From Desulfobacula sp. (GTDB lineage Bacteria; Desulfobacterota; Desulfobacteria; Desulfobacterales; Desulfobacteraceae): a DNA stretch of 45,411 nucleotides. The first letter of the stretch is position 1. Each line of letters begins with the position of its first letter. Shown piece by piece: positions 10,569 to 35,707 of this stretch. The translations under genes and the position numbers were made by a program. The stretch covers positions 1 to 45,411 of the forward strand of contig JAKIUJ010000005.1 of assembly GCA_021647625.1 (NCBI GenBank), read 5' to 3'. The notes beneath the pieces are model-generated. The model was not told where the DNA came from. It saw nothing but the letters and a program-made list of their open reading frames with translations, and searched no databases.

Positions 10569-10570
10569 CT

Positions 10571-16111: not shown

Positions 16112-16395
16112 AATTCTTCCGTGCGGCTTGAAATAGAGTTGATTTGGCTTTCATTAAAAATTTGAATGAATCCTGCATTGGGGTTCGACCCTTTTAATCG
16201 TTCATGGTTGTTATAAAACAGAGAATGTAAAAACAGCTTATATTTATTGAATGAGCTGTGAAAAAGATACCAGTCAACCAGATCTTCCTGTTCACGCAGA
16301 TCTTTTTTTAAGATTTGCATTATCGGATCATTTTCTGACTCAGTCCTTTTCTTTTCTAATCTGAATTCTTCAAAAGAAATAATATTATCTGTCAT
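16108..16395 (-). CDS. Hypothetical protein, 95 aa
   Basis: A small charged helical protein, starting with TDNIISFEEFRLEKKR and containing an aromatic middle part (VDWYLFHSSFNKYKLFLHSLFYNNHERL). I do not recognise it. It begins 22 bases after the hsdS stop and overlaps the 175-aa gene by four bases, so it links the second restriction operon with that gene. The overlap and shared strand are the main reasons to believe it is expressed. Confidence 0.6.
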   Translation of the reverse strand: MTDNIISFEEFRLEKKRTESENDPIMQILKKDLREQEDLVDWYLFHSSFNKYKLFLHSLFYNNHERLKGSNPNAGFIQIFNESQINSISSRTEEL

Positions 16396-16417
16396 ATGTA
16401 CAGATCCTTTTATTGGG

Positions 16418-17764: not shown

Positions 17765-18177
17765 TACCCAACCTCCCCATCCTCAAGCAATTGTCTTTCC
17801 CGTTCAATTTCCGCAATCAGTTCTGCTTCTGTGGGCAGGACCAGCCTGTATTTGGAAGCAAAAAGCTGGTTGCTCTCTTTGAGCACGGAAAACTTAACAA
17901 TCGTCTCATCCCTGGATGTGCAGAGGATCAGGCCCACTGTGGGATTATCATCATCGCCCCGCTTAAACTCATCAAACATCCGTACATAGATGTCCATCTG
18001 CTCGATATCCTGGTGGGTCAGCTGATCGGTTTTAAGGTCATTGTCTATCCGCATTATCAGCCGGTTATGGCTCCAGCTCAATTTGCTACACACTGTGTCG
18101 CAAATCTTTTTATCCGGATAGGTCCGGTAGAACTGCCGGAAATTGCGCAAATTGGCATAGGAAATATCCTTTGGCAT
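17764..18177 (-). CDS. DUF1016/YhcG-type nuclease with internal deletion, 137 aa
   Basis: The N-terminal residues (SYANLRNFRQFYRTYPDKKI, then SKLSWSHNRLIMRI) match the DUF1016 N-domain. They join directly to DLKTDQLTHQDIEQMDIYVRMF and LILCTSRDETIVKF, the C-terminal PD-(D/E)XK domain. Full-length family members are about 330-380 aa, so roughly 200 residues between the two parts are missing, with the frame kept. The DLK of the nuclease core remains but the upstream catalytic acidic residue should lie in the lost part. It overlaps hsdM and hsdS by one base each, so it sits in a tightly coupled operon. Activity is doubtful. Confidence 0.8.
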   Translation of the reverse strand: MPKDISYANLRNFRQFYRTYPDKKICDTVCSKLSWSHNRLIMRIDNDLKTDQLTHQDIEQMDIYVRMFDEFKRGDDDNPTVGLILCTSRDETIVKFSVLKESNQLFASKYRLVLPTEAELIAEIERERQLLEDGEVG

Positions 18178-19616
18178 CAGCCTAACTCCTTTTTCAACTG
18201 TGCCAGCAATGCATCCCCTTTTGCAAAAGAGTGATGCAGCAGATCCAGCAGTTCAGCACTGCTGTATTGTTTTTCAAGTTCTGGCTGATGCGGGTTTTTA
18301 ATATCAAGATTATAACCATTCATCCTGATAGTCTCAAAATCCACCTGCCAGGCCTGTTCGTTTTCTACCCGACTGTTCCACCATTTTTTTACATTGTCAA
18401 ATTCTAAAAGCCGTATGGGTTTGGTTTTGGAATAGGCTTTGTAATTTTCAGGCAGTTTATGTTCCCAGTACCAGATGTTTTCAGTGGGTTCGCCTTTGGT
18501 AAAAAACAAAAGATTGGTTGCAACAGAGGCATAGGGTTGAAACACTGAGTTGGGCAGACGGATAATCGTATGCAGGTTGCAGTCCTCCAGCAATTTTTGT
18601 CTGATGCGCTGCTTTACACCCTCGCCTGTGAGGGAACCGTCCGGCAAAACAATGGCTGCTCTTCCGCCATCCTTGAGCAGATGAATCATCAGGATCAAAA
18701 ACAGGTCTGCGGACTCTTTGGTACGGAAAGTCCGGGGGAAATTGTTTTCATTATTATTGGAAACCACTCCGCCAAACGGTGGATTGGCCAGAATGATATC
18801 CACCCGGTCTTTTTGACGATATTCTGTTAACGGCTTTGCAAGGGAATCATCATATTGAATATTGGGAAGGTTGATATCATGCAAAATCAAATTGGTATTG
18901 CCAAGCAGATAGGGCAATGGTTTATATTCCCAGCCTGTGACATTTTTCCCAATGGCTTCCCGTTCGGCAACATTGGCAGCTTTTGCCTTGAGATGTTCCA
19001 GTGCGCAGGTGAGAAAACCGCCTGTGCCACAGGCAGGATCGAGTACTTTTTCACCTGGTTTGGGGTTGATCAGTTCCGTCAATAATTCAGTGATGGCGCG
19101 GGGAGTGTAGAACTCACCCAAAGTGCCTGCGCTTTGCAGCTCACTTAAAAAAGTTTCATAGATTTGACCGAATACATGTTTGTCTTTGCTGTTGTTGAAA
19201 TCAATCTCATTGAGCTTGTTGATCACCTGCCGTAAATGAATACCTGATTTCATATAATTGTAATTGTTGGCAAAAACTTCATGCACCAATAAAGCTCTTT
19301 TGTTGATTGTTCCGTTTTTCCCTGGAGCAAGATTAATATTGGATAATACAGGAAAAAGTTTTTGATCGACAAAGGTTAATAATTTATCACCGGTTATGCC
19401 TTCGTCATCTCCTGCCCATTCTCCCCAGTGCAGTTCCTCGGGGATGGGAGATATATATCCTTCTTGTATCAGTTCAAGTTCCTTGTCCTTGTCACTGAAA
19501 ATCTTCAGGAACAACATCCATCCCAGTTGCAGGATACGAAGTTCATCACTGCCGGTACCGGTGTCCTGGCGCATTATTTTTCTTGCTGATTTTACAATTC
19601 CACTGATATTTGCCAT
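18177..19616 (-). CDS. hsdM: Type I DNA methyltransferase subunit M, second system (HsdM)
   Basis: A 479-aa N6-adenine methyltransferase subunit. It has the N-terminal HsdM helical domain (VKSARKIMRQDTGTGSDELR), AdoMet motif DPACGTGG at 193-200 and catalytic NPPF at 278-281, followed by ESADLFLILMIHLLKDGGRAAIVLPDG. It starts six bases after the truncated hsdR and is followed without a gap by the DUF1016 remnant and hsdS. With HsdS it would form the modification enzyme; all motifs needed for methylation are present. Confidence 0.94.
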   Translation of the reverse strand: MANISGIVKSARKIMRQDTGTGSDELRILQLGWMLFLKIFSDKDKELELIQEGYISPIPEELHWGEWAGDDEGITGDKLLTFVDQKLFPVLSNINLAPGKNGTINKRALLVHEVFANNYNYMKSGIHLRQVINKLNEIDFNNSKDKHVFGQIYETFLSELQSAGTLGEFYTPRAITELLTELINPKPGEKVLDPACGTGGFLTCALEHLKAKAANVAEREAIGKNVTGWEYKPLPYLLGNTNLILHDINLPNIQYDDSLAKPLTEYRQKDRVDIILANPPFGGVVSNNNENNFPRTFRTKESADLFLILMIHLLKDGGRAAIVLPDGSLTGEGVKQRIRQKLLEDCNLHTIIRLPNSVFQPYASVATNLLFFTKGEPTENIWYWEHKLPENYKAYSKTKPIRLLEFDNVKKWWNSRVENEQAWQVDFETIRMNGYNLDIKNPHQPELEKQYSSAELLDLLHHSFAKGDALLAQLKKELG

Positions 19617-19622
19617 ATTTTT

Positions 19623-21749
19623 CTATGCCACCTTATATATTTCTCGTTCCAGTTCAGTGACTGCATGCAGATATTGTTTTTTCCCGCCGAAAATTTTAAC
19701 AATTTCAAGTGGTGAGCCAAATCGATTCAATGGACTGACCTGCAGTATTTTCATATCTTCTATATTTTCCACACCCTCATCAGAATATTTGTCCAGCAGG
19801 GCTTTGAGCACCTTGCGTGCCTGCTCTCCGTATTTAGTAAAATAATCACTTTTTTTAACATTGTTCGCCCGTTCTGCGCGGCTCAAAGGGGGTTGATCAA
19901 AAGCCGTATGGCAAATGAGGTCAAAAATATCCATCTCTCTGTTAATGACCTCCTTGAAATTTTCAAAGACAATACCCTGCTCGGTAAGTTCTTCAATAAT
20001 AACCTTTTTTTTATCAGCCTGATTCCATTTATTTATAAAATCGTCCAAAGATCGATATTGTTCACAGACTTTTTTTCGTGTGTAATCCTTTAGACTGCCG
20101 GTAATCAATCCACCATTGCCGTCCATGTATTGAATACGTTCATTCAGGACCGCTACATTGACACCATTAACATAATATTTAGCCAGGTGTTCATCAATGA
20201 TGCCTCCACCGTCGATAATATCATCAGGATACTCTACCGGCGGTATATCAAAAACAATTTCTTCACCTTCTTCATCAAGTACGGGCTCTTTAGTTTTCAA
20301 TTCATCTTCAGGAGATTCAAACTCATCATCTTCGTTAAGCTCTTTAACTCTTACCGGATCACCATCAAAGCCCGGATCGGCAAACAAATCCGTGACATTT
20401 CTAAAATCCATAATGGTAAAAAAAGTTTTGCCGAATTCTTCATTGATACGGGTTCCGCGCCCAATGATCTGTTTAAACTCGGTCATGGAACAGATATTAC
20501 TGTCAAGCACTATGAGTTTGCAGGTTTGAGCATCAACACCAGTGGTCATCAATTTGGATGTAGTGGCAATAACCGGATATCTTTCTTCAGGGTTTATGAA
20601 ATTATCCAGTTCCATTTTACCTTCGTCATTGTCACCGGTGATCTGCATGACAAATTTGCTGTTTTTTGCCATTAGATCACTATTTTCATTGGCAATAGCG
20701 GCTCTCATTCGTTGTGCATGATCAATATCCACGCAAAAGATAATGGTTTTATCAAAACGATTGGTTTTAATTAAGAATTGGGTAACTTTTTTTGATACTG
20801 TCTGGGTGCGCTCATCAATAACAAGGTTTTTGTCAAAGTCCTTACGGTTATATATGCGGTCATCAATCAGCAAACCGTGCTTGTCCGTTTTGCCTTTTTC
20901 AGGGCGCCATCCTTCAAGGTCAACGTTCAGGCCTACCCGCAATACCTTGTAGGGTGCAAGGAAACCATCCTGTATTCCCTGCCTGAGTGAATAGGTATAG
21001 ATGGGATCACCAAAATATTCGGTGCTGGAGACCGCTTCCGTCTCTTTCGGGGTGGCGGTCAGGCCGATATGTGCGGCACCTGAAAAATAGTTAAGAATTT
21101 CCCGCCAGGCACTGTCCTCTGCTGCACTGCCACGGTGACACTCATCAATCACTATCAAATCGAAAAAATTGGGGCTGAATTTTCGATAAGCGTCTTTATC
21201 TTCATCATAGTTGGTTAATCCCTGGTAAAGGGCGAGATAAATTTCATAGGATTTATCAATTTTCTTTTTTCTGATCACCGTCATTTTGTCTTTAAAGTGA
21301 CGGAAATCTCCCCGTTTTGTCTGATCGATCAAAGCGTTTCTGTCAGCCAGGAAAAGGATACGTCTTTTTGTGCTGCTTTTCCATAAACGGTGAATAATCT
21401 GAAATGCGACATACGTCTTGCCGGTTCCTGTTGCCATGGTTAAAAGGATACGATCTTGCCCTTTGGCAATGGCCTCACAAGTGCGGTTGACTGCAATTTG
21501 CTGATAGTAGCGTGGTGTTCTTCCTGAACCGTCAAAAAAATAGTCCTGTGCAGTAATCGATTCCTGTTCTTTTGTAACAATACCTTTATACTTTTTATAG
21601 CGCTGCCAGAGAATTTCAGGAGATGGAAACTGGTTTAAAGAAAGCTCTGTTTCAATCTTGCCTTTGGAACAAGTGCGGTCGTGCTCATAAAATCCATCAC
21701 CATTACTGCTGTAGACCGAGGGTATATCCAATATTTGGGCATAATTCAA
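19623..21749 (-). CDS. hsdR: N-terminally truncated type I restriction subunit R (HsdR), nuclease domain missing
   Basis: A 708-aa SF2 translocase half of an HsdR. Walker A MATGTGKT is at 105-112, DECH at 202-205, TATP at 231-234 and GRGTR in motif VI, then the HsdR C-terminal domain. Relatives carry about 100-150 further N-terminal residues with the PD-(D/E)XK nuclease. Here the frame starts at a TTG inside conserved sequence. Just upstream the same frame still reads HSVKAGIQQGL before a stop at 21789-21791, so the native gene extended further and was cut by a deletion. No nuclease motif remains, so restriction by this system is probably lost although translocation could persist. Confidence 0.85.
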   Translation of the reverse strand: MNYAQILDIPSVYSSNGDGFYEHDRTCSKGKIETELSLNQFPSPEILWQRYKKYKGIVTKEQESITAQDYFFDGSGRTPRYYQQIAVNRTCEAIAKGQDRILLTMATGTGKTYVAFQIIHRLWKSSTKRRILFLADRNALIDQTKRGDFRHFKDKMTVIRKKKIDKSYEIYLALYQGLTNYDEDKDAYRKFSPNFFDLIVIDECHRGSAAEDSAWREILNYFSGAAHIGLTATPKETEAVSSTEYFGDPIYTYSLRQGIQDGFLAPYKVLRVGLNVDLEGWRPEKGKTDKHGLLIDDRIYNRKDFDKNLVIDERTQTVSKKVTQFLIKTNRFDKTIIFCVDIDHAQRMRAAIANENSDLMAKNSKFVMQITGDNDEGKMELDNFINPEERYPVIATTSKLMTTGVDAQTCKLIVLDSNICSMTEFKQIIGRGTRINEEFGKTFFTIMDFRNVTDLFADPGFDGDPVRVKELNEDDEFESPEDELKTKEPVLDEEGEEIVFDIPPVEYPDDIIDGGGIIDEHLAKYYVNGVNVAVLNERIQYMDGNGGLITGSLKDYTRKKVCEQYRSLDDFINKWNQADKKKVIIEELTEQGIVFENFKEVINREMDIFDLICHTAFDQPPLSRAERANNVKKSDYFTKYGEQARKVLKALLDKYSDEGVENIEDMKILQVSPLNRFGSPLEIVKIFGGKKQYLHAVTELEREIYKVA

Positions 21750-23879: not shown

Positions 23880-25250
23880 TTATTCGTCTGTTTTTTCAAG
23901 CCTGTACCTGAGTGTAGCCCGGGACAGGCCCAATAATCTGGAGGCTTTGGATACATTGTTGTTTGTTGTTTTCATTGCATATTGAATACAATAGCTTTCC
24001 AGCTCTTCTAAACTTAATCCCTGATCATTGATCATCATTGGGATCAGTGTGTCCATATTCATTGGTTCAAATGATTTTTCCTGGGATTCATTGAGGATGA
24101 GGTGGTTACTTGTGATTTGAGATCCTTTGCAGAGAATCATAGCCCGTTCAAGAACATTTTTTAATTCTCTGATATTTCCTTTCCACGGGTAGTGGCGAAG
24201 TTTTTTTATCGCTTTTTCTGAGAGTTCAGGTGGTTTTCTGCCAAATGCTTTTGAAAATTCCTGAATAAAATGATTTGATAGCTTCGGGATATCTTCTTTT
24301 CTCTGTCTTAATGGCGGGATAAGGATGGGGAATACATTAATCCGGTAAAACAGATCTTCCCGGAATCGTTTTTCTTCCACCATTTGTTCAAGATCCTGGT
24401 TGGTTGCTGCAATGATTCTGACATCCGCTTTCATCGTTGTTCCTCCGCCAAGCCGTTCAAATTCGCGGGTTTCAAGAATACGCAACAGTTTGGCCTGGAC
24501 ATCGAGCTCCATATCTCCTATTTCATCCAGAAAAAGCGTTCCTCCGGAAGCAATTTCAAATTTTCCTTTTGTTCTTTTGTGGGCACCGGTAAATGCGCCT
24601 TTTTCATATCCGAACAATTCTGCTTCAAGGAGGGTGGCAGGGATGGCCGCACAATTGACGGTTAAAAAGGGGCCGCTTGATCGTGGACTGTTGATATGGG
24701 TGGCACGGCTTAGAAGTTCTTTTCCTGTACCGCTTTCTCCTGTGATAAGGACCGTTGTGTCCGTGTTGGAAACGCTGCCGGCAAGTTTTAGGACCTCGCA
24801 AATTTTGGGGGAATCACCCACAATCTTTTTAAAGGTATACCGGTCTTCAATTTCCTGACGCAGATGCCTTACTTCATATGTCAGTCGGCTGATTTTTAAC
24901 GCTTTTTTTACGCTGGAGCGCAATCTTTCCTCTTTAAACGGTTTGGTCACATAATCAAACGCACCTTGTTGAATCGCTTTAACTGCATTTTCAATGGACC
25001 CGAAGGCGGTGATGACAATCACTGGGATTTCAGGATCTTTTTGTTTAACGGCAGAAAGGACTTGCATGCCATTTACCTTAGGTAGTTTTAAATCGGTTAC
25101 GACAAGGTGAATGGTCTCGTTTTCAAATATCTCTATTGCCTGCTCACCGTCAATAGCTTCATGGATGTTAAGATCAAGGTCTGAAAGCTGCATCACGATT
25201 ATCTGCCGCATTCTTTCTTCATCTTCGATTAACAATACATTAGCCGCCAT
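23880..25250 (-). CDS. NtrC-family sigma-54-dependent response regulator
   Basis: A 456-aa cytoplasmic transcription activator. The receiver domain has D10/E11, phospho-acceptor D53 (VTDLKLP), T81 and K103. The AAA+ domain has Walker A GESGTGKE at 171-178, the sigma-54-contacting GAFTGA loop at 218-223 and Walker B TLFLDEIGD at 238-246. A Fis-type helix-turn-helix ends the protein (NNVSKASRLLGLSRATLRYRL). All residues needed for sigma-54 activation are present. It overlaps the kinase gene by 11 bases, with its own AGGAG site. Three sigma-54 promoter matches nearby (28056-28071, 28121-28136, 31384-31399) are its likely targets. Confidence 0.96.
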   Translation of the reverse strand: MAANVLLIEDEERMRQIIVMQLSDLDLNIHEAIDGEQAIEIFENETIHLVVTDLKLPKVNGMQVLSAVKQKDPEIPVIVITAFGSIENAVKAIQQGAFDYVTKPFKEERLRSSVKKALKISRLTYEVRHLRQEIEDRYTFKKIVGDSPKICEVLKLAGSVSNTDTTVLITGESGTGKELLSRATHINSPRSSGPFLTVNCAAIPATLLEAELFGYEKGAFTGAHKRTKGKFEIASGGTLFLDEIGDMELDVQAKLLRILETREFERLGGGTTMKADVRIIAATNQDLEQMVEEKRFREDLFYRINVFPILIPPLRQRKEDIPKLSNHFIQEFSKAFGRKPPELSEKAIKKLRHYPWKGNIRELKNVLERAMILCKGSQITSNHLILNESQEKSFEPMNMDTLIPMMINDQGLSLEELESYCIQYAMKTTNNNVSKASRLLGLSRATLRYRLEKTDE

Positions 25251-27120
25251 GTTTTTTCTCCTGTAGCACTAGAGGGAATAATAGTTTAAAGCGGGTCCCT
25301 TTTTTGGGAGTGCTCGTGATTTTGATTTGCCCTTTATGCGATTTGACAATTTGAGAGACAATGGATAGGCCAAGGCCGATACCGTTATCCCTGAAGCTTA
25401 TGAAAGGGTCTAAAATTTTTTCCAGTTGATCTTTATCTATGCCGCAACCTTGATCTATTATGGATACCGTTAGAAAATCAGGATGTTGCTGGATTAAGCC
25501 CTTGATGGGAATGATGGTTTCATCAATGATTTCTTTACCTTTCTCAATTCCGATTCTGACGCTGACGGTTCCTCCTTTGGGCATGGATTGTATGGCATTT
25601 AAAAAAATGTTCCAGAAGACTTCTTTTATCTGATCCGGGTCAGCCAGAATGACAGGTGCCATGGCAGGAAAATCCCTGTCTATTTTATACCCGTTTTCTT
25701 TAAACCGTTCTTCGGTGGAAATAAGAATCTCGTCCAATAGATCTGTTATATCAATGTACTTAAAACTGGGGGACGCAGGCTTTGCAAAATCAAGGAAGGC
25801 TGTCAGTGTGTTGTTTAACCGTTCGACTTCATCCATGATAAAATCGGCAGCTTTTTCCCGCATTTCCATGGGGCGTTCCTTGTTTGTGACAACCTGTGCG
25901 GAGCCAAGGATAATTCCGAGAGGGTTTTTAATTTCATGGGCAATACTGGCCGTCATCTGTCCGACAGCAGCCAACTTTTCCTGTTGGGCAAGTTCGGCAT
26001 ATGTTTTTTTCAACTCCCGGGTACTCATTTCAAGGGAAGATGCCATTTGATTAAAGGAGCCGGCCAGTGCCACGGCAATATCAGGGTCTTTGATATTTAC
26101 CTTATATTCAAGATCGCCGCTGGAGATTCTTTCAATACCTTTTTTAAGTACATTCAAAGGGCTGACAATGGTCATGGCAAGAAGATAACTCAACAGGCTT
26201 GAAAGAAGAATACCCGCAATGACAAGAGAGATAATGGCCTGTCTTATCGCGATAACATTTTCTAAAAAATCCGAAACCGGCAATGTCACCCCAACAGTCC
26301 AGTCATTTCCGGGATAATCCGTATAGGCGGTAAAAAACTGATTACCCTGGAATGAAGACATGCCAAAGGTCTTGTTTTTTTTATTCAGATCCGTAAGACA
26401 GGTCCTTAAAAGATCAATATGATAGGAATTCCAGGGAAGCTGCACAAGAGACGGGTGGGCAATCACACGTTTTTGTTTGTTTTCAAAGATATAAGCAAAG
26501 CCGTGTTTTCCGATTTTAATTCCTCTCAAGAATTTTGAAATTGAAGAAATATCAATATCAATTCCACAAACCGATTGAAGGATGCCATTTGCATCGTATA
26601 TTGGTACAGATACAGTCATACCGGGTTTCTGGGTGGATGCAAATAAATAAACATCCGTCCAGAAGACATCCTTTTTATTGATGGCACCTCGATACCAGGG
26701 CCTGACACGTGGATCAAATACCTTATGAACTTCAGGAATCTGGGCCGGAGCCATTAAAAAACGACCGGTTTCATCTCCAAAATTAATATTAACAAATTCC
26801 GGGTGATCCTGTTGAAACAGATGAAAATATTGAAGGATTTGTTTGTCATCAAAATGGTTGATTAAATTATTTTCGAAAAATGATTTAATCAGTTTTACGT
26901 TATACGTGTGTTGAGATAAAAAAGATTCTACCCGTTTCGAAATTTGGGCGGCAGTGCCAAGGGCGTATTGCTGCATCTGCTGTTCTGCTACCTTTCTGGC
27001 TTGTAAATAACCAAAGTAGCCGGTTCCGGGAATGACAATTACAATGATCAAAGTCAATGCTAAAAATATCCGGACTTGAAAAGAGTGACAGAAAATATTT
27101 AAGTTTTCTTTTAACCTCAT
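25240..27120 (-). CDS. Cache-domain sensor histidine kinase
   Basis: A 626-aa membrane kinase, partner of the NtrC-type regulator. The first transmembrane segment is at about 17-36; a large periplasmic double-Cache-like sensor at 40-290 includes FDPRVRPWY at 135-143, typical of dCache ligand pockets, and GIDIDI. The second transmembrane segment is at about 294-318, HAMP at 315-367, and the dimerisation helix has phospho-acceptor H395 (SIAHEIKNP). The ATPase domain has N-box NIFLNAIQS, then DQGCGID and GIGLGLSIV. dCache domains usually bind small carboxylates or amino acids, in line with the nearby uptake and CoA-ligation genes. It starts six bases after the lipoprotein gene. Confidence 0.95.
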   Translation of the reverse strand: MRLKENLNIFCHSFQVRIFLALTLIIVIVIPGTGYFGYLQARKVAEQQMQQYALGTAAQISKRVESFLSQHTYNVKLIKSFFENNLINHFDDKQILQYFHLFQQDHPEFVNINFGDETGRFLMAPAQIPEVHKVFDPRVRPWYRGAINKKDVFWTDVYLFASTQKPGMTVSVPIYDANGILQSVCGIDIDISSISKFLRGIKIGKHGFAYIFENKQKRVIAHPSLVQLPWNSYHIDLLRTCLTDLNKKNKTFGMSSFQGNQFFTAYTDYPGNDWTVGVTLPVSDFLENVIAIRQAIISLVIAGILLSSLLSYLLAMTIVSPLNVLKKGIERISSGDLEYKVNIKDPDIAVALAGSFNQMASSLEMSTRELKKTYAELAQQEKLAAVGQMTASIAHEIKNPLGIILGSAQVVTNKERPMEMREKAADFIMDEVERLNNTLTAFLDFAKPASPSFKYIDITDLLDEILISTEERFKENGYKIDRDFPAMAPVILADPDQIKEVFWNIFLNAIQSMPKGGTVSVRIGIEKGKEIIDETIIPIKGLIQQHPDFLTVSIIDQGCGIDKDQLEKILDPFISFRDNGIGLGLSIVSQIVKSHKGQIKITSTPKKGTRFKLLFPLVLQEKKHGG

Positions 27121-27126: not shown

Positions 27127-27972
27127 TTAATACTCCCTTGCACTGTCTTGGATTTCTTTAGCAAGATAGGTGTTGGCTACATTAAGATCTACATATTTTT
27201 TAATATAGGGCAATACTTTTTGCAGGTGATTTTCGTTTTTCAGCAATAGTTTAATGGCAAGTCCTGTTGAAACACTGTATTGATAGTTTTCCCAAAGCAG
27301 ATCAAAAGCACGATATACCTCTATTTTATCCGTGGCGTGCCGTACGATTTCAAGGAGTGAAACACTGGCCCATTGCGTCTTGGTTTTTTTCTTTGCAGGT
27401 TGTGCGCCTTTAGGGGTTATAGGATACACCAGGCTGACCCATGGAACAGGTGATGATATTCCCATTTCAATATTGGGATAGGTTTTTACAATCTGCCAAT
27501 AGTATGGAATACCTGCTTTTTTTTCTTTGAGCAGATCACAATATATCCATCCAAGATACCAATTGGCTTTTACAAGAATTTGGGGATACCCTTTATATGT
27601 TTTAATCACATCCCGGTAAGCCAAAATTGCATTGGTAAAGTCTTTTTTTGTTGCAAATCGATAATCAAGGCCAAGATTCATATAGGCAAGATAAAGGGCC
27701 GCCTCCCCGCATTCTTCCCTTTCTTTTGGAAAAATATGAAAAATGAATTCAAAAGCCGTTCTTTTTTGATTCGCATCCGGAAATCCTGATTTGGCATAAT
27801 TCAGTTGCCCCTGTGCGGTTGGAAACTGGGGAATGTTGAATCCTTGAAACAAGACAACAGGCAGTTCGGGTTTAGGGAATAAAAGAGAAGTTGATTCATT
27901 ATTACAACCATTCAACACAATAAAAGCGGTGAACAATATTAAGATAACGATGATGGCAAAGAATTTTTTCAT
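27127..27972 (-). CDS. Lipoprotein with TPR-like repeats, putative accessory sensor
   Basis: A 281-aa exported protein. A type II signal peptide of 22 residues ends in the lipobox VLNGC, making C23 the acylated residue. The mature part is helical with TPR-like character (FTNAILAYRDVIKTYKGYPQ, followed by LVKANWYLGWIYCDLL). It is first in an operon with the histidine kinase and regulator and probably feeds information to the kinase's periplasmic domain; that role is inferred from operon position only. A sigma-54 promoter match lies about 85 bases upstream on the same strand, so the operon may be autoregulated. Confidence 0.8.
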   Translation of the reverse strand: MKKFFAIIVILILFTAFIVLNGCNNESTSLLFPKPELPVVLFQGFNIPQFPTAQGQLNYAKSGFPDANQKRTAFEFIFHIFPKEREECGEAALYLAYMNLGLDYRFATKKDFTNAILAYRDVIKTYKGYPQILVKANWYLGWIYCDLLKEKKAGIPYYWQIVKTYPNIEMGISSPVPWVSLVYPITPKGAQPAKKKTKTQWASVSLLEIVRHATDKIEVYRAFDLLWENYQYSVSTGLAIKLLLKNENHLQKVLPYIKKYVDLNVANTYLAKEIQDSAREY

Positions 27973-28055
27973 TTATGTTAATCTAAATTTTTTTGAAAAT
28001 GTTATCATGCCAGACAAATATCACAGAGTCCAACACATATACAAGTTTTTGTGCA

Positions 28056-28071
28056 TGCAAGAATATTGCCA
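28056..28071 (-). promoter_or_regulatory. Sigma-54 promoter of the lipoprotein-kinase-regulator operon
   Basis: Minus strand TGGCAATATTCTTGCA: GG and GC separated by exactly ten bases, as in the TGGCAC-N5-TTGC consensus. The predicted start lies near 28045, about 70 bases before the lipoprotein ATG. Confidence 0.7.
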
Positions 28072-28120
28072 AATATTATTGGGGAGCAAATAGGCCTTTT
28101 TCTTCAAATTTAATCAATAA

Positions 28121-28136
28121 TGGCATAAAGATTGCT
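28121..28136 (+). promoter_or_regulatory. Sigma-54 promoter of the enoyl-CoA hydratase/acyl-CoA synthetase operon
   Basis: TGGCATAAAGATTGCT, with GG-N10-GC spacing and only one departure from TGGCAC. The start is predicted near 28147, about 75 bases before the ATG at 28223. Fifteen of sixteen bases are shared with the match at 31384. It is divergent from the promoter at 28056-28071. Confidence 0.8.
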
Positions 28137-28213
28137 AACATTTTGAAGTTTAAAGCGACTTTAGGTTTAAAATCTAAAGCATTTATAATTTTAATCGGCT
28201 CCTTTCACAATAG

Positions 28214-28987
28214 GTGAATCACATGGACTATGAATGTATTATTTATGAAAAAAAAGACAAGATTGGTTTGATCAAGCTGAACCGGCCCAAAGTACTCAAT
28301 GCGATGAATCGGCAACTCTGGATTGAGATGCAGGATGCATTGGAGACTATCAAGCAGGACAAGGATATTAAGGCATTGATTATAACAGGCCAGGGCCGCG
28401 CTTTTTCAACCGGAGCAGATCTTAAGGACTCAAAGGATAGAAGTATTGAGGATTATAGAATTTATCTTGAATCTCTGCAGGAGGCATCAAGAAAAATTGT
28501 TAGATTTGAAAAACCAACGATTGCAGCTATTAACGGATATGCTCTGGGATCCGGATACGAGCTTGCTTTGGCCTGTGATATAAGAATCGCAGCCAATGAA
28601 GCCCTTATTGGTTCACCTGAAGCACGAGTCACTTCATCTGTCACCGGAGGTGCATTTCGTCTGGTTCAGGATCTGGTCGGACCCGGCAAGGCAAGAGAAC
28701 TTCTTTTTACTGCGGAAAATATTACAGGCGAGGAAGCCCAGCGTATTGGCCTGGTGAACAAATCAGTACCTTTGGGAGACTTGATGGATGAAGCTTTCAT
28801 TATGGCTCAAAAGATTGTTGCCAATTCGTCTTTTTCCTTAAAAGTCATTAAAAAAGGCTTTCTCATGGCCCAGGGAGAATGCAGTCTTGAAGCACTTATG
28901 GATTACGAGATTGAGGGTTGTCTGGCCTGTGTTTCAACAAAAGAAAGAGAGCAATCTTTAGACGTTTTTGAGCAGAGAAAAAAATAA
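28214..28987 (+). CDS. Enoyl-CoA hydratase/isomerase (crotonase) family protein
   Basis: A 257-aa crotonase-fold enzyme acting on an acyl-CoA, most simply hydration of a 2-enoyl-CoA. The oxyanion-hole and catalytic stretches are AFSTGADLKD and INGYALGSGYELALACDIR with E116, then GSPEARV with E136. The 20-residue spacing of these Glu residues equals that of Glu144/Glu164 in rat mitochondrial hydratase, so both catalytic acids are in place. The ATG at 28223 with AGGTG upstream is a better start than the GTG at 28214. It is followed after 15 bases by the acyl-CoA synthetase. The exact substrate is unknown. Confidence 0.92.
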   Translation: MNHMDYECIIYEKKDKIGLIKLNRPKVLNAMNRQLWIEMQDALETIKQDKDIKALIITGQGRAFSTGADLKDSKDRSIEDYRIYLESLQEASRKIVRFEKPTIAAINGYALGSGYELALACDIRIAANEALIGSPEARVTSSVTGGAFRLVQDLVGPGKARELLFTAENITGEEAQRIGLVNKSVPLGDLMDEAFIMAQKIVANSSFSLKVIKKGFLMAQGECSLEALMDYEIEGCLACVSTKEREQSLDVFEQRKK

Positions 28988-29002
28988 TAAAAGGAAAAAA
29001 AC

Positions 29003-31144
29003 ATGTTAGATAAAGTACTCAATGCTAAATCCGTTGCCATTATAGGTGCATCAAAAAGTAAAACAAAACGGGGGTATCAGGCCATTAAAACTCTCTTGAC
29101 AGACGGCTTTGAAGGAGAAATTTATCCGGTTAACCCGAAGGAAGACAAGATATTAGGGCTTAATTGTTATAAAGATATCACTGACGTTGAAGGCGAAGTT
29201 GATCTTGCCTTGATAACTACACCTGCCCGAACGATTCCAGGGATTTTAAGAAAATGCGGTGAAAAGAATGTTGCCGGCGCTGTGATTATTGCAGGTGGTT
29301 TTCGTGAGTTGGGTGCAAAAGGACAAGAGCTTGAAAAGGAAGTTATTGCTGCTGCAAAAGAGACCGGGGTCAGGTTAATCGGGCCAAATACATCAGGAAT
29401 GATTAATCTTAAAACTAGTATGAATCTTGTGGGAATTCAAAACGTACCAAGAGGAAATATTGCGCTTTTATGTCAAAGCGGGAATATGGCACTCACGCTC
29501 ATTACAGAAGCAATGATTCTTAAACACGAGGGTTTCACCTATTATGTCGGCGTTGGAAATGAAGCGGATATTAAGTTTCATGAGTATCTTGAATTTTTTA
29601 GAAATGATCCGGATACCAAAGCCGTTTTGATGTATGTCGAAGGTATGAGCCAAGGACGAAAATTCTTGCAGGAAGCCTATAATACAAGTATTGAAAAACC
29701 GATTATTCTTTTAAAAAGCGGACGATCTGCGACGGGTAAAAAATCTGCCGGCTCTCATACCGGGTCTCTTGCGGGAATCAGTGAAGTCGCAAACAGAGCA
29801 TACGAGCGGGCCGGTATCGTCGTGATTGAGAATTCAGATGAATTGTTTCCCGTGGCCGAAACCCTTTCAAGCCAGCCGGTAATTAAAAATAATTGCATTG
29901 CAATCTTAGCGGATGGCGGAGGGCATGCCACCATTGCCGCAGATCTTTTGTCCGATTATGGAATAAACATGCCTGAGTTATCTGAAAAGACCCGCAGTAA
30001 GTTAAGGAAGATTCTTCCTGAAGCTGCGTCAGTTGTAAACCCGGTTGATGTGGCAGGCGGAACGGATTCTGATCCCAGCCTGTTTGCAGATTGTGCCAGG
30101 ATTATATTAAAAGATCCCCATGTAGGCGGTTTGCTGGTGGTCGGTTTGTTTGGCGGTTACGGCATCCGATTTGAGGAGAGCCTTGCCATCGGAGAAGAGG
30201 CCGCAGCCCATCGCTTTGGAGCCATGGTGAAAAAGAGAAGCAAACCGATTTTTGTTCATTCTCTTTATGGTTCATATGAATCCCATGCGCTGGATTTGTT
30301 GCGACATTATGATATACCGGTCCACGACTCGCTGGATATTTCGTGCAAATGTGTGGCATCTCTATGCAAATATGGCAATTATCTTAAATCATATCACGGG
30401 AAAACTAATTTTGTTTTTGACTGGCGAGCCAAGGCCAGAGAACAAGGTAAGCAAATTATACAAAATGTGAAAAAAGAGGGTCGGCATGTGCTTTTGGAGC
30501 ATGAAGCAAAGCAGTTGATTCAGTTGCATGGGGCACAAACTTCGGTGGGGCAGGTTGCAACAACTGAAGATGAGGCGTGGGAAATCGCAAAAAAAATTAA
30601 GGGAAACAATGAACGCGTTGTTTTGAAGATTGTTTCTCCGGATATTTTGCATAAAAGTGACGCCGGCGGAGTAAAATTGAATCTGGGCTCTGAAAAAGAG
30701 GTTAGAGGAGGTTTTAAAAAGATTATTAAAGGTGCAAAGGTCTATAATCCTGAAGCGGATATACGGGGTGTCCTTGTCGCACCAATGGCTAAACAGGGAC
30801 TTGAAGTCATCATTGGAACCAAGATTGATGAACAATTCGGTCCGGTGATCATGTATGGGTTAGGCGGTATCATGGTTGAAATTATGAAAGATGTCACTTT
30901 CTGGGTATTGCCTCTATCCCCAACCTCTTGTAAAAAAATATTGGAAGACACACGCTCCTCAGTTCTTTTGGATGGTGTACGAGGCCAAAAAGGGTATGAT
31001 AAAAAATCAATGAGAAAACTTTTATCCATGTGTTCTGAGCTGATTGAATCCTATCCGGAAATTGATGAAATGGATCTTAATCCGGTGATGCTTTATGAAC
31101 AGGGTCTGGATGTGGTTGATGCAAGGATTATTTTAAAAAAATAA
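29003..31144 (+). CDS. ADP-forming acyl-CoA synthetase (acetate-CoA ligase type), fused alpha-beta
   Basis: A 713-aa fused NDP-forming acyl-CoA synthetase: carboxylate + CoA + ATP to acyl-CoA + ADP + Pi, reversible, so it can also harvest ATP from an acyl-CoA. The N-terminal CoA-binding domain has VAIIGASKS; the ligase domains follow, with YVEG at 211-214 and the phospho-histidine loop SAGSHTGSLAG with H252. The C-terminal ATP-grasp beta domain (about 480-713) has VLKIVSPDILHKSDAGGVKL. A ribosome site (AAAAGGAAA) precedes the ATG. It shares an operon with the crotonase and a predicted sigma-54 promoter. The substrate, perhaps an aromatic or branched carboxylate, is inferred from context. Confidence 0.93.
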   Translation: MLDKVLNAKSVAIIGASKSKTKRGYQAIKTLLTDGFEGEIYPVNPKEDKILGLNCYKDITDVEGEVDLALITTPARTIPGILRKCGEKNVAGAVIIAGGFRELGAKGQELEKEVIAAAKETGVRLIGPNTSGMINLKTSMNLVGIQNVPRGNIALLCQSGNMALTLITEAMILKHEGFTYYVGVGNEADIKFHEYLEFFRNDPDTKAVLMYVEGMSQGRKFLQEAYNTSIEKPIILLKSGRSATGKKSAGSHTGSLAGISEVANRAYERAGIVVIENSDELFPVAETLSSQPVIKNNCIAILADGGGHATIAADLLSDYGINMPELSEKTRSKLRKILPEAASVVNPVDVAGGTDSDPSLFADCARIILKDPHVGGLLVVGLFGGYGIRFEESLAIGEEAAAHRFGAMVKKRSKPIFVHSLYGSYESHALDLLRHYDIPVHDSLDISCKCVASLCKYGNYLKSYHGKTNFVFDWRAKAREQGKQIIQNVKKEGRHVLLEHEAKQLIQLHGAQTSVGQVATTEDEAWEIAKKIKGNNERVVLKIVSPDILHKSDAGGVKLNLGSEKEVRGGFKKIIKGAKVYNPEADIRGVLVAPMAKQGLEVIIGTKIDEQFGPVIMYGLGGIMVEIMKDVTFWVLPLSPTSCKKILEDTRSSVLLDGVRGQKGYDKKSMRKLLSMCSELIESYPEIDEMDLNPVMLYEQGLDVVDARIILKK

Positions 31145-31229
31145 ACTTATAAATGGATGAGATCACGATAGATCATGAGTAATATTTTTGACAACAATAT
31201 GCCAATATTTGTAATTGATGAAATACTCA

Positions 31230-31251
31230 AAATTGATTAAATACTCAATTT
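31230..31251. promoter_or_regulatory. Dyad upstream of the TRAP sigma-54 promoter, possible activator site
   Basis: AAATTGA and TCAATTT form a perfect 7-bp inverted repeat with an 8-bp centre, about 150 bp upstream of the -24 box. This is a usual distance for an NtrC-type enhancer site. Weak evidence. Confidence 0.3.
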
Positions 31252-31383
31252 CTGCTGTAACCTTTATCTTTGTAGCGCTTTGGATGATTTCATATTTGTT
31301 AAAACAAAATAATTGTTCATACCATCAAATATTCATAATCGAAGAAGGCCCGGAATTCGAGAGTCCGTCAAGTATATGTTTGA

Positions 31384-31399
31384 TGGCACAAAGATTGCT
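31384..31399 (+). promoter_or_regulatory. Sigma-54 promoter upstream of the TAXI-TRAP genes
   Basis: TGGCACAAAGATTGCT is a perfect TGGCAC-N5-TTGC match with GG-N10-GC spacing. It shares AAAGATTGCT with the promoter at 28121. The start is predicted near 31410, giving a leader of about 300 bases into which TIR element R3 is inserted. Confidence 0.75.
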
Positions 31400-31498
31400 C
31401 TTAATAGCATAATGCGTAAAAAATAATTGTAAAAAAAATCAGGAAAGGAGGAAAGCCAAAGGCAGTAAAAAAAAGCATAGTATTAAGGGTGTTTCTTT

Positions 31499-31660
31499 AG
31501 GGCCCACTAAAAAATAACTTTAGATTTTGAGAGCCTGTTCATCCTGTCCGGCTGCGTTGTGAAAACACGACATATCTTGATATGCCTTAGTTTTCACGCC
31601 TTACCAGCCAGGCGATTCAACTCTCAAAATTGGTAATTAATTTTTGAGTGAGCCCTTAGC
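31499..31660. repeat. TIR element R3 (MITE-like, ~160 bp)
   Basis: The left end GGGCCCACTAAAAAATAAC and the complementary right end GGGCTCACTCAAAAATTAA are inverted repeats, both flanked by TTA. Inner arms TTTTGAGAG and CTCTCAAAA continue the palindrome, and GTGAAAAC...GTTTTCAC forms a further central hairpin. It is non-coding and lies in the leader between the sigma-54 promoter and the TAXI gene. Confidence 0.7.
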
Positions 31661-31707
31661 AGAACAGCAAAGATAATAAATCTAATAATTAAAATTGGGA
31701 GACAAAG

Positions 31708-32691
31708 ATGAAAAAAACATTGATTTTGACCACGGCATTATTATTTGGAATGGTTCTTTTTTTAGGTGCAGGCGTAACCGAAACCCAGGCTAAAACAACG
31801 TTTGTTACAATTGGAACAGGTGGGATTACAGGAGTATATTACCCAACAGGCGGTGCCATCGCAAAGATCGTCAACAAAAAGAAAAAAGAATACGGCATCC
31901 GCTGCACAGTTGAATCTACAGGTGGTTCTGTTTTTAACATCAATGCCATTATGGCCGGTGACCTTGACTTTGGTGTGGCACAATCTGATCGTCAATACCA
32001 GGCGACCAAAGGTCTTGCAGACTGGAAAGATAAAGGCCCTCAAACTGACCTTCGCGCTGTTTTTTCCATACATGCTGAAACCATTGATCTTATCGCGGCG
32101 GTTGATGCGAATATTAACAGCCTTGCCGATCTTAAAGGCAAAAGAGTTAATATTGGAAACATTGGTTCCGGCCAGCGTCAGAATGCCATTGATGCTCTGG
32201 AAGCCAATGGGATTAACTGGAAAACAGATTTTCATGCAGAAAGCTTAAAAGCCGCCGAAGCTCCCGGACTTATCCAGGATGGCAGAATTGATGCGGCTTT
32301 TTACACTGTCGGGCATCCTTCAGGATATTACAAAGAAGCCACTTCAGGTGTTCGTAAAGTTAAATTTATTCCAATTGTAGGCATTGACGGCCTTTTGGCA
32401 AAATATCCTTATTATGCAAAAGCTGCAACCTTGATGAAAAATTATCCAGGTGCTGCAAATACCGAAAGCGCGGTTCCAACCTTTGGCGTGAAAGCCACAT
32501 TTGTTACATCTGCAAAAGTATCTGATAGTGTTGTTTATGCCATTACAAAAGAGGTATTTGACAATTTTGAAGCATTTACCAAGCTGCATCCTGCCTATGC
32601 CGGTCTTACTAAAAAGGCGATGCTCACTGGTCTTTCAGCGCCTATTCATCCAGGTGCTATGAAGTATTACAAAGAAGCAGGCTTGAAATAG
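31708..32691 (+). CDS. TAXI-family TRAP transporter substrate-binding protein
   Basis: A 327-aa periplasmic binding protein that delivers its ligand to the TRAP permease. The signal peptide covers residues 1-28, with a TQA cleavage site. The mature protein shows TAXI blocks: TFVTIGTGGITGVYYPTGGA at the start, FNINAIMAGDLDFGVAQSD, LADLKGKRVNIGNIGSGQR and DGRIDAAFYTVGHPS. TAXI proteins often bind glutamate-like or other carboxylates; the ligand here is not predictable. A GGGAG ribosome site precedes the ATG. The stop codon lies within the 6-bp target duplication of repeat R2 copy A. Confidence 0.94.
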   Translation: MKKTLILTTALLFGMVLFLGAGVTETQAKTTFVTIGTGGITGVYYPTGGAIAKIVNKKKKEYGIRCTVESTGGSVFNINAIMAGDLDFGVAQSDRQYQATKGLADWKDKGPQTDLRAVFSIHAETIDLIAAVDANINSLADLKGKRVNIGNIGSGQRQNAIDALEANGINWKTDFHAESLKAAEAPGLIQDGRIDAAFYTVGHPSGYYKEATSGVRKVKFIPIVGIDGLLAKYPYYAKAATLMKNYPGAANTESAVPTFGVKATFVTSAKVSDSVVYAITKEVFDNFEAFTKLHPAYAGLTKKAMLTGLSAPIHPGAMKYYKEAGLK

Positions 32692-32944: not shown

Positions 32945-35035
32945 ATGAGCGATACTGAAGTTCAGGAAATTGATGATGGCTTGGAACTTGCCAGAAAAAT
33001 GGCAGAAGAAGAAGAAGGAATAGGACGAAAACCCTTAGGGCTTGAGAAGTGGGTCATCCCGACTATTGCTGTTGCTTGGAGTTTGTTTCAGCTATCCATA
33101 GCAAGTTGGCTGATACTTGATTCAACCTATATCCGGTCAATCCATCTTGGGTTTGCATTATTGATTGTTTATTTAAATTACCCTACGTTTAAGAAAAAAA
33201 AATGGGGATTGAAATTTTTGTCTGCCACGGACAGGATCCCTGTTTTTGACTATATTATTGCCATTGCAGCATGTCTCTCCGCTCTTTATCTTGTGCTTGA
33301 TTTTGTAGGGATAACCACACGGTATGGTGCACCCATTCAAAGGGATATCGTCATTGGTATCTTGATGACTGTTTTGCTCTTAGAAGCGGCCAGAAGGGTT
33401 ATTGGACCGGCACTTCCCATTATTGCCATCTTTTTTTGTGTGTATGCTTTTTTTGGTTCTTATATGCCGGATCTCATCGCTTTTAAAGGGGTATCTTTAA
33501 ATCGTTTTGTAGGGCAAATGACCATGTCCACAGAAGGGATTTATGGTATTCCTCTAGATGTATCGGCGACCATTGTATTTCTTTTTGTGCTTTTTGGCGC
33601 CATGCTGGATAAGGCAGGGGCAGGTCGTTATTTTATTCAGCTTGCCTTAAGTCTTCTGGGCGGTTTCAAGGGTGGGCCTGCAAAGGCCGCTGTTCTTGGG
33701 AGCGGGCTTACAGGGATGGTATCGGGTTCCAGTATTGCAAATATTGTCACCACAGGAACATTTACCATACCCATGATGAAAAAAGTGGGTTATCCTGCCA
33801 CCAAGGCTGCCGCAGTTGAAGTGGCAGCAAGTACGGATGGACAACTGGCTCCCCCGATTATGGGTGCTGCTGCATTTATTATCGCTGAATATGTCAATGT
33901 CCCCTATGTCCAGGTGATTAAGGCCGCTGCAATCCCGGCCTTTGCTTCTTATGCCGCACTATTTTATATTACTCATATTGAAGCATCAAAGCTGGGCTTA
34001 AAGGGGATACCTAAAAAAGAGCTTCCTGTATTTTTTAAAACGCTTATCAGCGGGCTTCATTTTTTAATCCCGATCTCATTGCTGCTTTATGAGCTTGTTG
34101 TGGTACGACACTCTCCTGAACTTGCAGCTTTTAATGCCATATGGCTGATGGCCCTGGTCATGCTGTTCCAGGGGCCGGTCAAGGCGTATATTGCAAAACA
34201 ACCCATTGTTCCTGCAATAAAAAAGGCCGTGATTGATATTTTTTCAGCCTTTGCCTCGGGTGCCCGGAATATGGTTTCAGTGGCCCTGGCAACGGCTGCC
34301 GCAGGTATCATTGTCGGTGTTGTGGCGCTGGGACTTGGCGGACTTATCACGGAAATTATTGATGTTATTTCCATGGGCAATGTATATCTCATGCTGGTCA
34401 TTACAGCCATTGCAAGTTTGATTATTGGGATGGGGCTTCCCACGACAGCCACATATATTGTTATGGCATCTTTAACCGCCCCTGCAATTGTATCCATTGC
34501 CGGTGCTCAGGAATGGTTTGTACCGTTAATGTCTGCCCATTTATTCTGTTTTTATTTTGGAATTCTGGCAGATGACACACCACCTGTCGGACTTGCTGCC
34601 TATGCGGCGGCGGCCATTGCAAAGTCTCCGCCTATTGCCACGGGCATTCAGGGGTTTATGTATGATATTCGAACGGCGATCCTGCCATTCATGTTTATTT
34701 TCAATTCTGATTTGATTCTGTATAATATTACATCCTGGCCCCAGGGAATACTGATTTTCCTCATGGCATGCATCGGTAATTTTGCCTTTGCTTCGGCAAC
34801 CCAGGGGTGGTTTGTTGCAAAAAATAAGATATGGGAAGTGCCCTTGTTCCTAAGCGTAACCGTTTTGGCCATGAGACCTGATGCCATTGCATCTCTGATT
34901 GGTCTCCCCCATGACCAGCGGTATTATATTTATCCTGTTGCGCTTATACTTTTCGGTATCATTTATTTATTGCAGAAACCGAGAATTATTCAAAGCAAAG
35001 GCAAGACAGCCAAAGAAGCGTTTGGTGATTATTAA
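32945..35035 (+). CDS. TRAP transporter fused permease subunit (DctQM type)
   Basis: A 696-aa polytopic membrane protein in which the small (DctQ-like, about residues 40-200) and large (DctM-like, 200-640) subunits are fused, as is normal for TAXI systems. Many hydrophobic helices are visible; conserved loops include GSGLTGMVSGSSIANIVTTG, AAVEVAASTDGQLAPPIMGA and IGMGLPTTATYIVMA, then ADDTPPVGLAAYAAAAIA. It imports the TAXI ligand with sodium or proton symport. The gene follows the binding protein after a spacer filled by R2 copy A. Confidence 0.95.
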   Translation: MSDTEVQEIDDGLELARKMAEEEEGIGRKPLGLEKWVIPTIAVAWSLFQLSIASWLILDSTYIRSIHLGFALLIVYLNYPTFKKKKWGLKFLSATDRIPVFDYIIAIAACLSALYLVLDFVGITTRYGAPIQRDIVIGILMTVLLLEAARRVIGPALPIIAIFFCVYAFFGSYMPDLIAFKGVSLNRFVGQMTMSTEGIYGIPLDVSATIVFLFVLFGAMLDKAGAGRYFIQLALSLLGGFKGGPAKAAVLGSGLTGMVSGSSIANIVTTGTFTIPMMKKVGYPATKAAAVEVAASTDGQLAPPIMGAAAFIIAEYVNVPYVQVIKAAAIPAFASYAALFYITHIEASKLGLKGIPKKELPVFFKTLISGLHFLIPISLLLYELVVVRHSPELAAFNAIWLMALVMLFQGPVKAYIAKQPIVPAIKKAVIDIFSAFASGARNMVSVALATAAAGIIVGVVALGLGGLITEIIDVISMGNVYLMLVITAIASLIIGMGLPTTATYIVMASLTAPAIVSIAGAQEWFVPLMSAHLFCFYFGILADDTPPVGLAAYAAAAIAKSPPIATGIQGFMYDIRTAILPFMFIFNSDLILYNITSWPQGILIFLMACIGNFAFASATQGWFVAKNKIWEVPLFLSVTVLAMRPDAIASLIGLPHDQRYYIYPVALILFGIIYLLQKPRIIQSKGKTAKEAFGDY

Positions 35036-35215: not shown

Positions 35216-35707
35216 TTGGATAATATTAAAAAAATTCTTATTCCCCTTGCATTTACGGATTATTCACAAGGCGTTTTTAATTGTGCGTCGCAAATTGCCC
35301 GGACAAATGATGCTGAACTTATCGTTTTGAGTATCATCAATTCAAGGGATCTTGCCTCGGTGGAAAGTATTGTTTCCATGGGTTACGATGTTGATTCGGA
35401 ACACTATATTGAACAGATCCGAAAAGACAGGAAACAAAAGCTAAATAAAATGGTAGATGAGGCCAATATTGCTAAAGAAAACGTTAAAGTATTGTTTAAG
35501 ATTGGAAAGCCTGTCGATGAGATTTTAAAAGTGATCCATAATGAAGTACCTGATCTTGTTGTCATGGGAACAAGAGGACGTTCCAATTTGAAGAACAGTA
35601 TCATGGGGGCGGTTGCTGAAAAAGTTTTTAAACGATCGCCCGTGAATATATTGTCCTTCAGGGATGAAGACGTTAAAAAAAGCCTGGGAAAAAAGCTTCA
35701 TTTTTAA
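35216..35707 (+). CDS. Universal stress protein (UspA family)
   Basis: A 163-aa single-domain UspA protein, cytoplasmic. It starts at a TTG with a strong AAAGGAG site. KKILIPLAFTDYSQGVFNCA forms the first strand and helix; the nucleotide-binding loop reads GTRGRSNLKNSIMGAVAEKV, matching the GxxG-x9-G pattern of ATP-binding members, although Ala replaces the usual Ser/Thr after the last Gly. Usp genes often follow TRAP transporter genes, where TRAP-associated UspA proteins such as TeaD regulate uptake, so a regulatory role on the permease is a reasonable inference. Confidence 0.92.
   Translation: MDNIKKILIPLAFTDYSQGVFNCASQIARTNDAELIVLSIINSRDLASVESIVSMGYDVDSEHYIEQIRKDRKQKLNKMVDEANIAKENVKVLFKIGKPVDEILKVIHNEVPDLVVMGTRGRSNLKNSIMGAVAEKVFKRSPVNILSFRDEDVKKSLGKKLHF

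Follow-up and report, generated by a model that had tools for sequence, protein, structure and literature searches.

A probable two-component, sigma-54-dependent nutrient circuit linking a Cache sensor kinase operon to a TAXI-TRAP transporter in Desulfobacula sp.

Whether three neighbouring gene sets, each faced by a predicted sigma-54 promoter, belong to a single nutrient-responsive circuit, and which compound such a circuit would sense and import, is the question raised by a locus on contig JAKIUJ010000005.1 of Desulfobacula sp. (GCA_021647625.1), of which a stretch of 45,411 bp was analysed (the window, or W). The first set encodes a predicted lipoprotein (LP), a membrane sensor kinase (HK) and an NtrC-type response regulator (RR), the second a crotonase (ECH) and an ADP-forming acyl-CoA synthetase (ACD), and the third a TAXI solute-binding protein and a TRAP permease. 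The window was compared with 86 genomes of the same family (G numbers) and with fetched loci (L numbers: 11 stretches at first, then 10 around enhancer matches, plus 4 from other families). Taken together, the comparison suggests that the locus probably encodes a two-component, sigma-54-dependent nutrient circuit, in which sensor and transporter very likely form one unit and to which ECH-ACD likely belongs in this genome. Two-component, sigma-54-controlled uptake regulons are of a kind already known, and a candidate enhancer is added here.

The original prediction had named three GG-N10-GC matches, one on the minus strand facing LP-HK-RR and two on the plus strand facing ECH-ACD and the TAXI-TRAP genes. 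Their letters and coordinates (Table 1) hold, the plus-strand pair does differ at one base in sixteen, family models bear out the three gene sets, and the GAFTGA motif attributed to the regulator is seen in its translation; with a receiver, an AAA+ domain carrying GAFTGA and a Fis-type helix-turn-helix, RR has the make-up of an NtrC-type enhancer-binding protein. The Desulfobacula genome (4.27 Mb) contains one sigma-54 gene match. When one mismatch is tolerated, the bare pattern TGGCAYN5TTGCW is not enriched in the window (6 matches vs 4.99 expected), as would be anticipated if the sites were chance or relic look-alikes of -24/-12 elements. The exact pattern, however, is found in the window only as the two plus-strand sites, and in the whole genome 39 times against 2 for the pattern read backwards; among the 30 genome matches fetched, 22 have a same-strand open reading frame (ORF) downstream and are clear of large ORFs, 5 fall within an ORF of at least 150 aa, and 3 fit neither description. 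A weighted -24/-12 consensus, whose threshold of 23.0 was placed afterwards at the weakest of the three sites, is reached by exactly 3 of the 90,790 placements in the window, all of them these sites, the next best scoring 22.8. All three fall within two gaps of 250 and 563 bp, and 1000 Markov redraws of both gaps gave one such site in 17 cases and two in none.

In all ten ECH upstream regions (every fetched ECH orthologue plus the window), the TGGCA and TTGC columns are invariant against a mean column identity of 44%, the only other invariant columns being three further bases and the start ATG. TAXI-facing elements scoring at least 22.8 are present in 12 of the 15 loci that have a TAXI start (L131 left out), the exceptions being L130, L203 and L204, and the LP-facing element survives in 5 of the 6 upstream regions that could be aligned; L218 and L220 have one too. 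Most orthologous loci, to which the original prediction had looked for absence of the sites, thus keep them. The three predicted -24/-12 elements are real as sequence features, in place and kept by evolution in most relatives.

Reading the intergenic gaps of the loci side by side brought out a repeated 16-mer, TTGATGAAATGNTCAA, which resembles an enhancer site. In the window, a tandem pair of copies (UAS1 and UAS2) and a degenerate inverted copy (UAS3) form a cluster upstream of TAXI only. A matrix for which 52 copies were chosen by hand in relatives, with the window excluded, recovers all three among its four best window matches; the second-ranked match, at 25511 inside the kinase gene, is probably due to chance, and UAS3 scores 13.3, slightly below the 14.9 of the lowest member. 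The tandem (at most 3 mismatches) occurs once in this genome and, across the family, in 15 of 86 genomes at 19 places, against 0 of 86 for a reversed control. Eleven of these places precede a TAXI gene and one (L131) a TAXI start at a contig end; three lie in the gap between LP and ECH, one after ACD at a contig end, one before sucCD, and two, with 3 mismatches, are unrelated. A kinase orthologue was found in 13 of the 86 genomes (search at 1e-180), and G084, added through its regulator, makes 14; lipoprotein matches likewise occur in 14 of 86, two of them weak. The tandem is present in 11 of the 14 genomes with a kinase or regulator orthologue vs 4 of the 72 others (Fisher 1.7e-8, uncorrected for kinship). 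The tandem is missing from three orthologue-bearing genomes: G020 carries two single copies at its TAXI promoter, the contig of G033 starts inside the kinase, and that of G074 (L132) starts inside a peptidase gene. In G079, which has the tandem and no orthologue, the match carries 3 mismatches and lies inside a long ORF.

Among 12 tabulated clusters (the table leaves out L128, L130, L135, L201, L203, L204, L218, L221, L031, the ACD-side cluster of L133 and the second cluster of L127), the tandem pair is spaced by 18 bp in 11 and by 19 bp in L220, and the third copy follows after 79–81 bp in 11 and after 66 bp in L220. From the third site to the -24 element the distance is 69–71 bp in eight clusters, 60 bp in three and 147 bp in L220, the 60 and 70 bp classes differing by about one helical turn. 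The TAXI promoter is therefore a predicted sigma-54 promoter with upstream activator-like sites at fixed spacing, which the ECH and LP promoters of the window are not. Because of the conservation, the excess of exact matches in the genome and the enhancer with its fixed spacing at TAXI, a chance or relic origin of the -24/-12 sites is rejected as highly improbable. At L203 (1196–5372), genes for ATP-grasp, radical SAM and M20 peptidase proteins are divergent from TAXI across an enhancer pair.

The motif also accompanies the regulator beyond the family. A search with the kinase only, in which the motif was not used, led to four loci in other families, three of which (L218, L220 and L221) have exact or near copies of the motif in the gap that separates the regulator operon from its neighbour. 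In L031, a Desulfobacterales contig found by its regulator, a motif pair 19 bp apart, one copy per strand, lies between the lipoprotein gene and the genes on the opposite strand. The motif thus adjoins orthologous regulators in other families, where RR is 60–66% identical (L031 and L218–L221), compared with 75–88% in the loci of the family (f1).

The relation of the enhancer to the other two promoters is less direct, and here the alternative of two circuits has to be weighed, in which RR and the enhancer drive TAXI-TRAP while the ECH and LP promoters of this genome use another enhancer-binding protein or no fixed enhancer. The LP-ECH gap of the window has no enhancer match (best matrix score -4.1 vs at least 14.9 for members), nor has that of L125 (best -8.7), and those of L126 and L129 have no strong one (best 5.5, inside an extra TAXI gene). 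Two candidates in the window gap, at 27993–28008 and 28102–28117 (at most 4 mismatches, and by matrix), were dismissed as scoring far under the members, the best of L125 being worse still. Copies of the same motif nevertheless precede ECH in four relatives (L127, L128, L130 and L221). In W, L125, L126 and L129 the cluster lies between ACD and TAXI (in L126 on a separate contig of that genome, L198), in L130 the arrangement is reversed, with the cluster before ECH, and L127 has clusters in both gaps. Five loci (W, L125, L127, L129 and L130) were read in both gaps on a single contig, and all of them have at least one cluster. In L130, moreover, TAXI starts about 108 bp after ACD with no TAXI promoter seen, and the ECH-ACD and TAXI sets consequently look like one operon. 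Two separate circuits are therefore considered quite unlikely. The cluster of the window lies about 3 kb from the divergent ECH/LP promoter pair; either the enhancer reaches that far, or the pair depends on a site that is different or was not recognised.

The original prediction had proposed one autoregulated circuit. The link between the sensor-regulator locus and TAXI-TRAP, and in the four relatives between that locus and ECH/ACD, is strengthened by the shared enhancer-like motif; autoregulation fares less well. The LP-facing element is lost in L130 and not seen in L127, and in the window the divergent promoters have no recognisable enhancer. Further points weigh against the proposed circuit. 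The family-level association is partly circular, since these same loci are where the motif was first spotted by eye, and L219 and L132 have no enhancer cluster. In addition, G043, G081 and G083 carry the enhancer and TAXI with no regulator orthologue among the candidates scored (all 78, 150 of 249 and 150 of 233, respectively), so another regulator could use the site. The promoter looks intact in G043; in G083 and G081 the best remnant lacks the -12 GC, and it lies in register in G083, 59 bp beyond the third site, but out of register in G081. Promoter decay where the regulator is missing was rejected as support, the three genomes being too mixed.

In the window, L125, L126, L127, L128, L129, L130 and L221, LP-HK-RR is divergent from ECH-ACD, or from ECH alone if the contig stops there, with an extra TAXI gene between LP and ECH in L126 and L129; its divergent neighbour is TAXI-TRAP in L218 and L220, as well as in L131, where the contig ends. 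LP adjoins HK-RR in relatives across several families and may be a sensor accessory; no family reached its cut-off for it. The protein is modelled as TPR-like, and a structural identification was dropped, since superpositions were poor and no PDB entry matched at E 0.001 or better. ECH orthologues are 71–93% identical in the loci of nine relatives, ACD copies 67–87%, and the two genes lie next to each other in all 9 loci that show both, window included. In the assembly of L125, the kinase gene (4522–6396) has one in-frame TAA.

In the proposed mechanism, the periplasmic dCache domain of HK would sense an amino acid outside the cell, L-glutamate or a near analogue being the likeliest, and HK would phosphorylate RR. 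RR would bind the TTGATGAAATGNTCAA sites that precede the TAXI-TRAP promoter, a tandem 18 bp apart and a third roughly 80 bp further, and so drive sigma-54 polymerase there; the sites, their spacing and their conservation are seen in the sequences. The ECH-ACD operon, and in some lineages the sensor operon too, would share the regulon, given their promoters and, in relatives, the enhancer. The imported compound may then enter 2-oxoacid/acyl-CoA catabolism, where the ligase could work in either direction. A bolder version, a hitherto undescribed amino-acid (glutamate-type) regulon, probably of sulfate-reducer-like bacteria, with a three-site phased enhancer of which, in the lineage of the window, a single cluster beyond ECH-ACD would act on all three promoters, the divergent pair some 3 kb off among them, and with the lipoprotein as an extra periplasmic sensor component, is speculative and as a whole unlikely.

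The nature of the ligand is suggested first by the sensor. The dCache_1AA amino-acid motif, [YFWL]x4[RK]xW[YFW]x13-17[YFW]x27-34D in the methods of its source, the results section of which prints x3 (PMC11237719), is present in 16 of 16 kinase orthologues tested; in the Desulfobacula genome it is found in 3 of 18 dCache_1 matches (3 of 11 above cut-off), HK being one of the three. A model of the Cache domain (three-sequence alignment, mean pLDDT 80) matches many amino-acid receptors, a ranking biased by the abundance of such receptors among Cache structures in the PDB.

The transporter points the same way. The best solved match of the TAXI protein is 8s4j, the VcGluP protein, in which Y45 and Q93 are the key determinants for glutamate (PMC11574862). 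Equivalents of Y45, S75, Q93 and E125 are kept in all 12 aligned TAXI proteins, including that of the window, a set that leaves out the second TAXI proteins of L126, L129 and L220 and the TAXI protein of L204; they are also kept in the L220 protein and in that of L218, which is 31% identical, and Y200 is kept in the window protein. As a set, these contacts are absent from the two other TAXI matches of the genome (one below cut-off) and from the three second TAXI proteins. Two of the latter are encoded between LP and ECH, with no permease gene (L126, 1041–1964; L129, about 8914–9879), and could be helpers of the sensor.

Gene context in relatives points to an amino acid as well. In L133 (6029–7180), L134 (4027–5166) and L135 (8654–9796), LP is immediately preceded by an M20 peptidase gene of its own strand, so that the sensor operon there starts with the peptidase, and L132 begins with the cut end of such a gene in the same place; the peptidases of L133, L134 and L135 are 66–69% identical to that of L200. 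One enhancer cluster, in L202, precedes sucCD, both genes scoring above cut-off. The opposite-strand neighbours in L031 are an amino-acid-type solute-binding protein (92 of 256 bits) and a GltP-like symporter (272 of 638 bits), both below cut-off, followed after a gap of about 780 bp by 2-oxoacid:acceptor oxidoreductase alpha (above cut-off), beta (303 of 364 bits, 2-oxoglutarate model) and gamma genes.

These clues bear on the claim of the original prediction that a carboxylate is sensed, imported and activated to a CoA ester. A non-amino carboxylate activated by ACD and then hydrated by ECH would suit the constant adjacency of the two genes and the solved relatives of ACD, the nearest of which include 4-hydroxybutyrate-CoA and 3-hydroxypropionate-CoA ligases (8wzu, a 4-hydroxybutyrate-CoA ligase, is best at 426 bits, with aligned SHTG segments). 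DddX, a lyase of dimethylsulfoniopropionate (DMSP), is listed among them too (7cm9, 240 bits), which leaves a DddX/DMSP role a weaker candidate. ACD, however, lies below the cut-off of every ligase equivalog (504.9 vs 1300 bits for NF045493, ADP-forming 4-hydroxybutyrate-CoA ligase). ADP-forming CoA ligases can run either way, yielding ATP from acyl-CoA or activating an acid. Given also the Cache motif, the TAXI contacts and the M20, sucCD, GltP-like and 2-oxoacid oxidoreductase genes in relatives, a carboxylate ligand of this type is doubtful and was not retained as the best reading, and an amino acid is somewhat favoured. L-glutamate specifically is a tentative choice, a little short of an even call, and a glutamate-family amino acid would be the most economical signal and substrate. 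Several observations count against it. For the ligands that the source names, VcGluP was little affected by E125A or Y200A (PMC11574862), so the retention of E125 and Y200 says little; M201 of VcGluP is replaced by T in 12 of 12 aligned proteins and D157 by Q in 11 of 12, and S40 corresponds to G. For the M20 proteins the best model is an unnamed "hydrolase", with glutamate carboxypeptidase second and all matches below cut-off, and no M20 match occurs in the window or in loci L125–L130. A crotonase with an ADP-forming ligase is not a textbook route for glutamate.

Among known systems, AauSR-AatJQMP of Pseudomonas is close in design, as it also combines a membrane sensor kinase and an NtrC-type activator with an RpoN-dependent promoter, palindromic activator sites and acidic amino-acid uptake (promoter, sites and uptake being predicted here), and putative AauR sites stand also before gltP (PMC7962211), a GltP-like gene being present at L031. 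Its transporter, however, is of the ABC class and its activator site is TTCGG-N4-CCGAA, as opposed to TTGATGAAATGNTCAA, and the parts consulted mention neither a lipoprotein nor a crotonase/ADP-forming ligase for it (PMC7962211). The motif found here is not TTCGG-N4-CCGAA, and no separate scan for an AauR site was made. As activator site and transporter class differ, the circuit is not regarded as a member of the AauSR group. RR and HK score best to the AtoC and AtoS models, and an AtoSC identity was rejected at 469 of 714 and 205 of 646 bits, below the NCBIfam equivalog cut-offs, the HK match covering the catalytic part only. DctBD-DctA/DctPQM, which is mentioned in PMC7962211, is another system for comparison. 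It resembles the present locus in the two-component sigma-54 control of a TRAP transporter, predicted here, and differs in having a DctP-type transporter and C4-dicarboxylates as substrates. The glutamate TAXI-TRAP transporter VcGluP-VcGluQM shares the five binding residues and a permease with DUF3394, and differs in the three substitutions given above and in the truncation of DUF3394 in the window (PMC11574862). In Desulfovibrio vulgaris, carboxylic- and amino-acid catabolism is under sigma-54 and many activators are described, among them one whose predicted site is an AT-rich palindrome (PMC4641369). The text does not contain the words TRAP or Cache, and the present regulator and motif were not seen in the parts consulted. 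No paper recognised as describing the circuit turned up in searches of an open-access library that lacks most subscription journals.

The coordinates of the features are collected in Table 1. The window gene pair qualifies as a TAXI-TRAP transporter by its TIGR02122 solute-binding protein above cut-off beside a fused TIGR02123 permease. TAXI identity to the window is 89% in L130, 51–57% in 12 other loci and 31% in L218, as against 82–93% for ECH and ACD in the family; by this comparison the transporter varies between loci, unlike the family ECH and ACD. The window permease, with its truncated DUF3394, has 696 aa, while the ORF has 858–867 aa in L198, L200, L203 and L204. The leader from TAXI promoter to start is 324 bp long in the window vs 148–158 bp in L125, L127 and L129, a difference that insertion of the MITE-like element would explain; the element occurs at no fewer than 41 distinct places in the genome, TAXI leader included (52 matching rows; 40 of 104 candidates scored). 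Elsewhere in the window, 2205–21749 resembles a defence island: it holds two sets of type I restriction-modification genes together with a RhuM-family gene, part of a YhcG/DUF1016 gene, DUF6880 and a gene for an rve integrase.

Table 1. Positions of the circuit genes, predicted promoter elements, enhancer-like sites and associated features in the window.
Feature	Position	Strand	Remarks
RR, NtrC-type response regulator, putative enhancer-binding protein	23880..25250	-	Pfam Response_reg, Sigma54_activat, HTH_8; GAFTGA in translation
HK, membrane sensor kinase	25240..27120	-	periplasmic dCache_1, HAMP, HisKA, HATPase_c
LP, predicted lipoprotein, TPR-like helical repeat	27127..27972	-	first gene of LP-HK-RR operon
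-24/-12 element facing LP-HK-RR, TGGCAATATTCTTGCA	28056..28071	-	GG-N10-GC
-24/-12 element facing ECH-ACD, TGGCATAAAGATTGCT	28121..28136	+	GG-N10-GC
ECH, enoyl-CoA hydratase/isomerase family protein	28223..28987	+	Pfam ECH_1; GTG start at 28214 also possible
ACD, single-chain ADP(NDP)-forming acyl-CoA synthetase	29003..31144	+	Pfam CoA_binding_2, Succ_CoA_lig, ATP-grasp_5
UAS1, enhancer-like site, TTGATGAAATACTCAA	31215..31230	+	0 mismatches; matrix rank 1 in window
UAS2, enhancer-like site, TTGATTAAATACTCAA	31233..31248	+	18 bp after UAS1; matrix rank 3
UAS3, degenerate inverted copy	31313..31328	-	3 mismatches; exactly 80 bp after UAS2; matrix rank 4
-24/-12 element facing TAXI-TRAP, TGGCACAAAGATTGCT	31384..31399	+	GG-N10-GC; 71 bp after UAS3 start
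MITE-like inverted-repeat element, 156 bp, in TAXI leader	31500..31655	.	terminal repeats and TTA flanks by eye
TAXI solute-binding protein	31708..32691	+	TIGR02122, 310 bits, above cut-off
Fused TRAP permease (DctM)	32945..35035	+	TIGR02123, 639 bits; DUF3394 truncated, positions 1-52 of 181
Universal stress protein, possible last gene of transporter operon	35216..35707	+	same place in L130, 79% identical

Characterisation of TAXI-TRAP transporters is still poor (PMC11574862), and many enhancer-binding proteins have no known signal or targets (PMC4641369). At this locus, comparative evidence links a sensor, an activator, a candidate activator site, a promoter and a transporter, the class of the ligand can now be tested, and the motif offers a way to find the regulon in other genomes.

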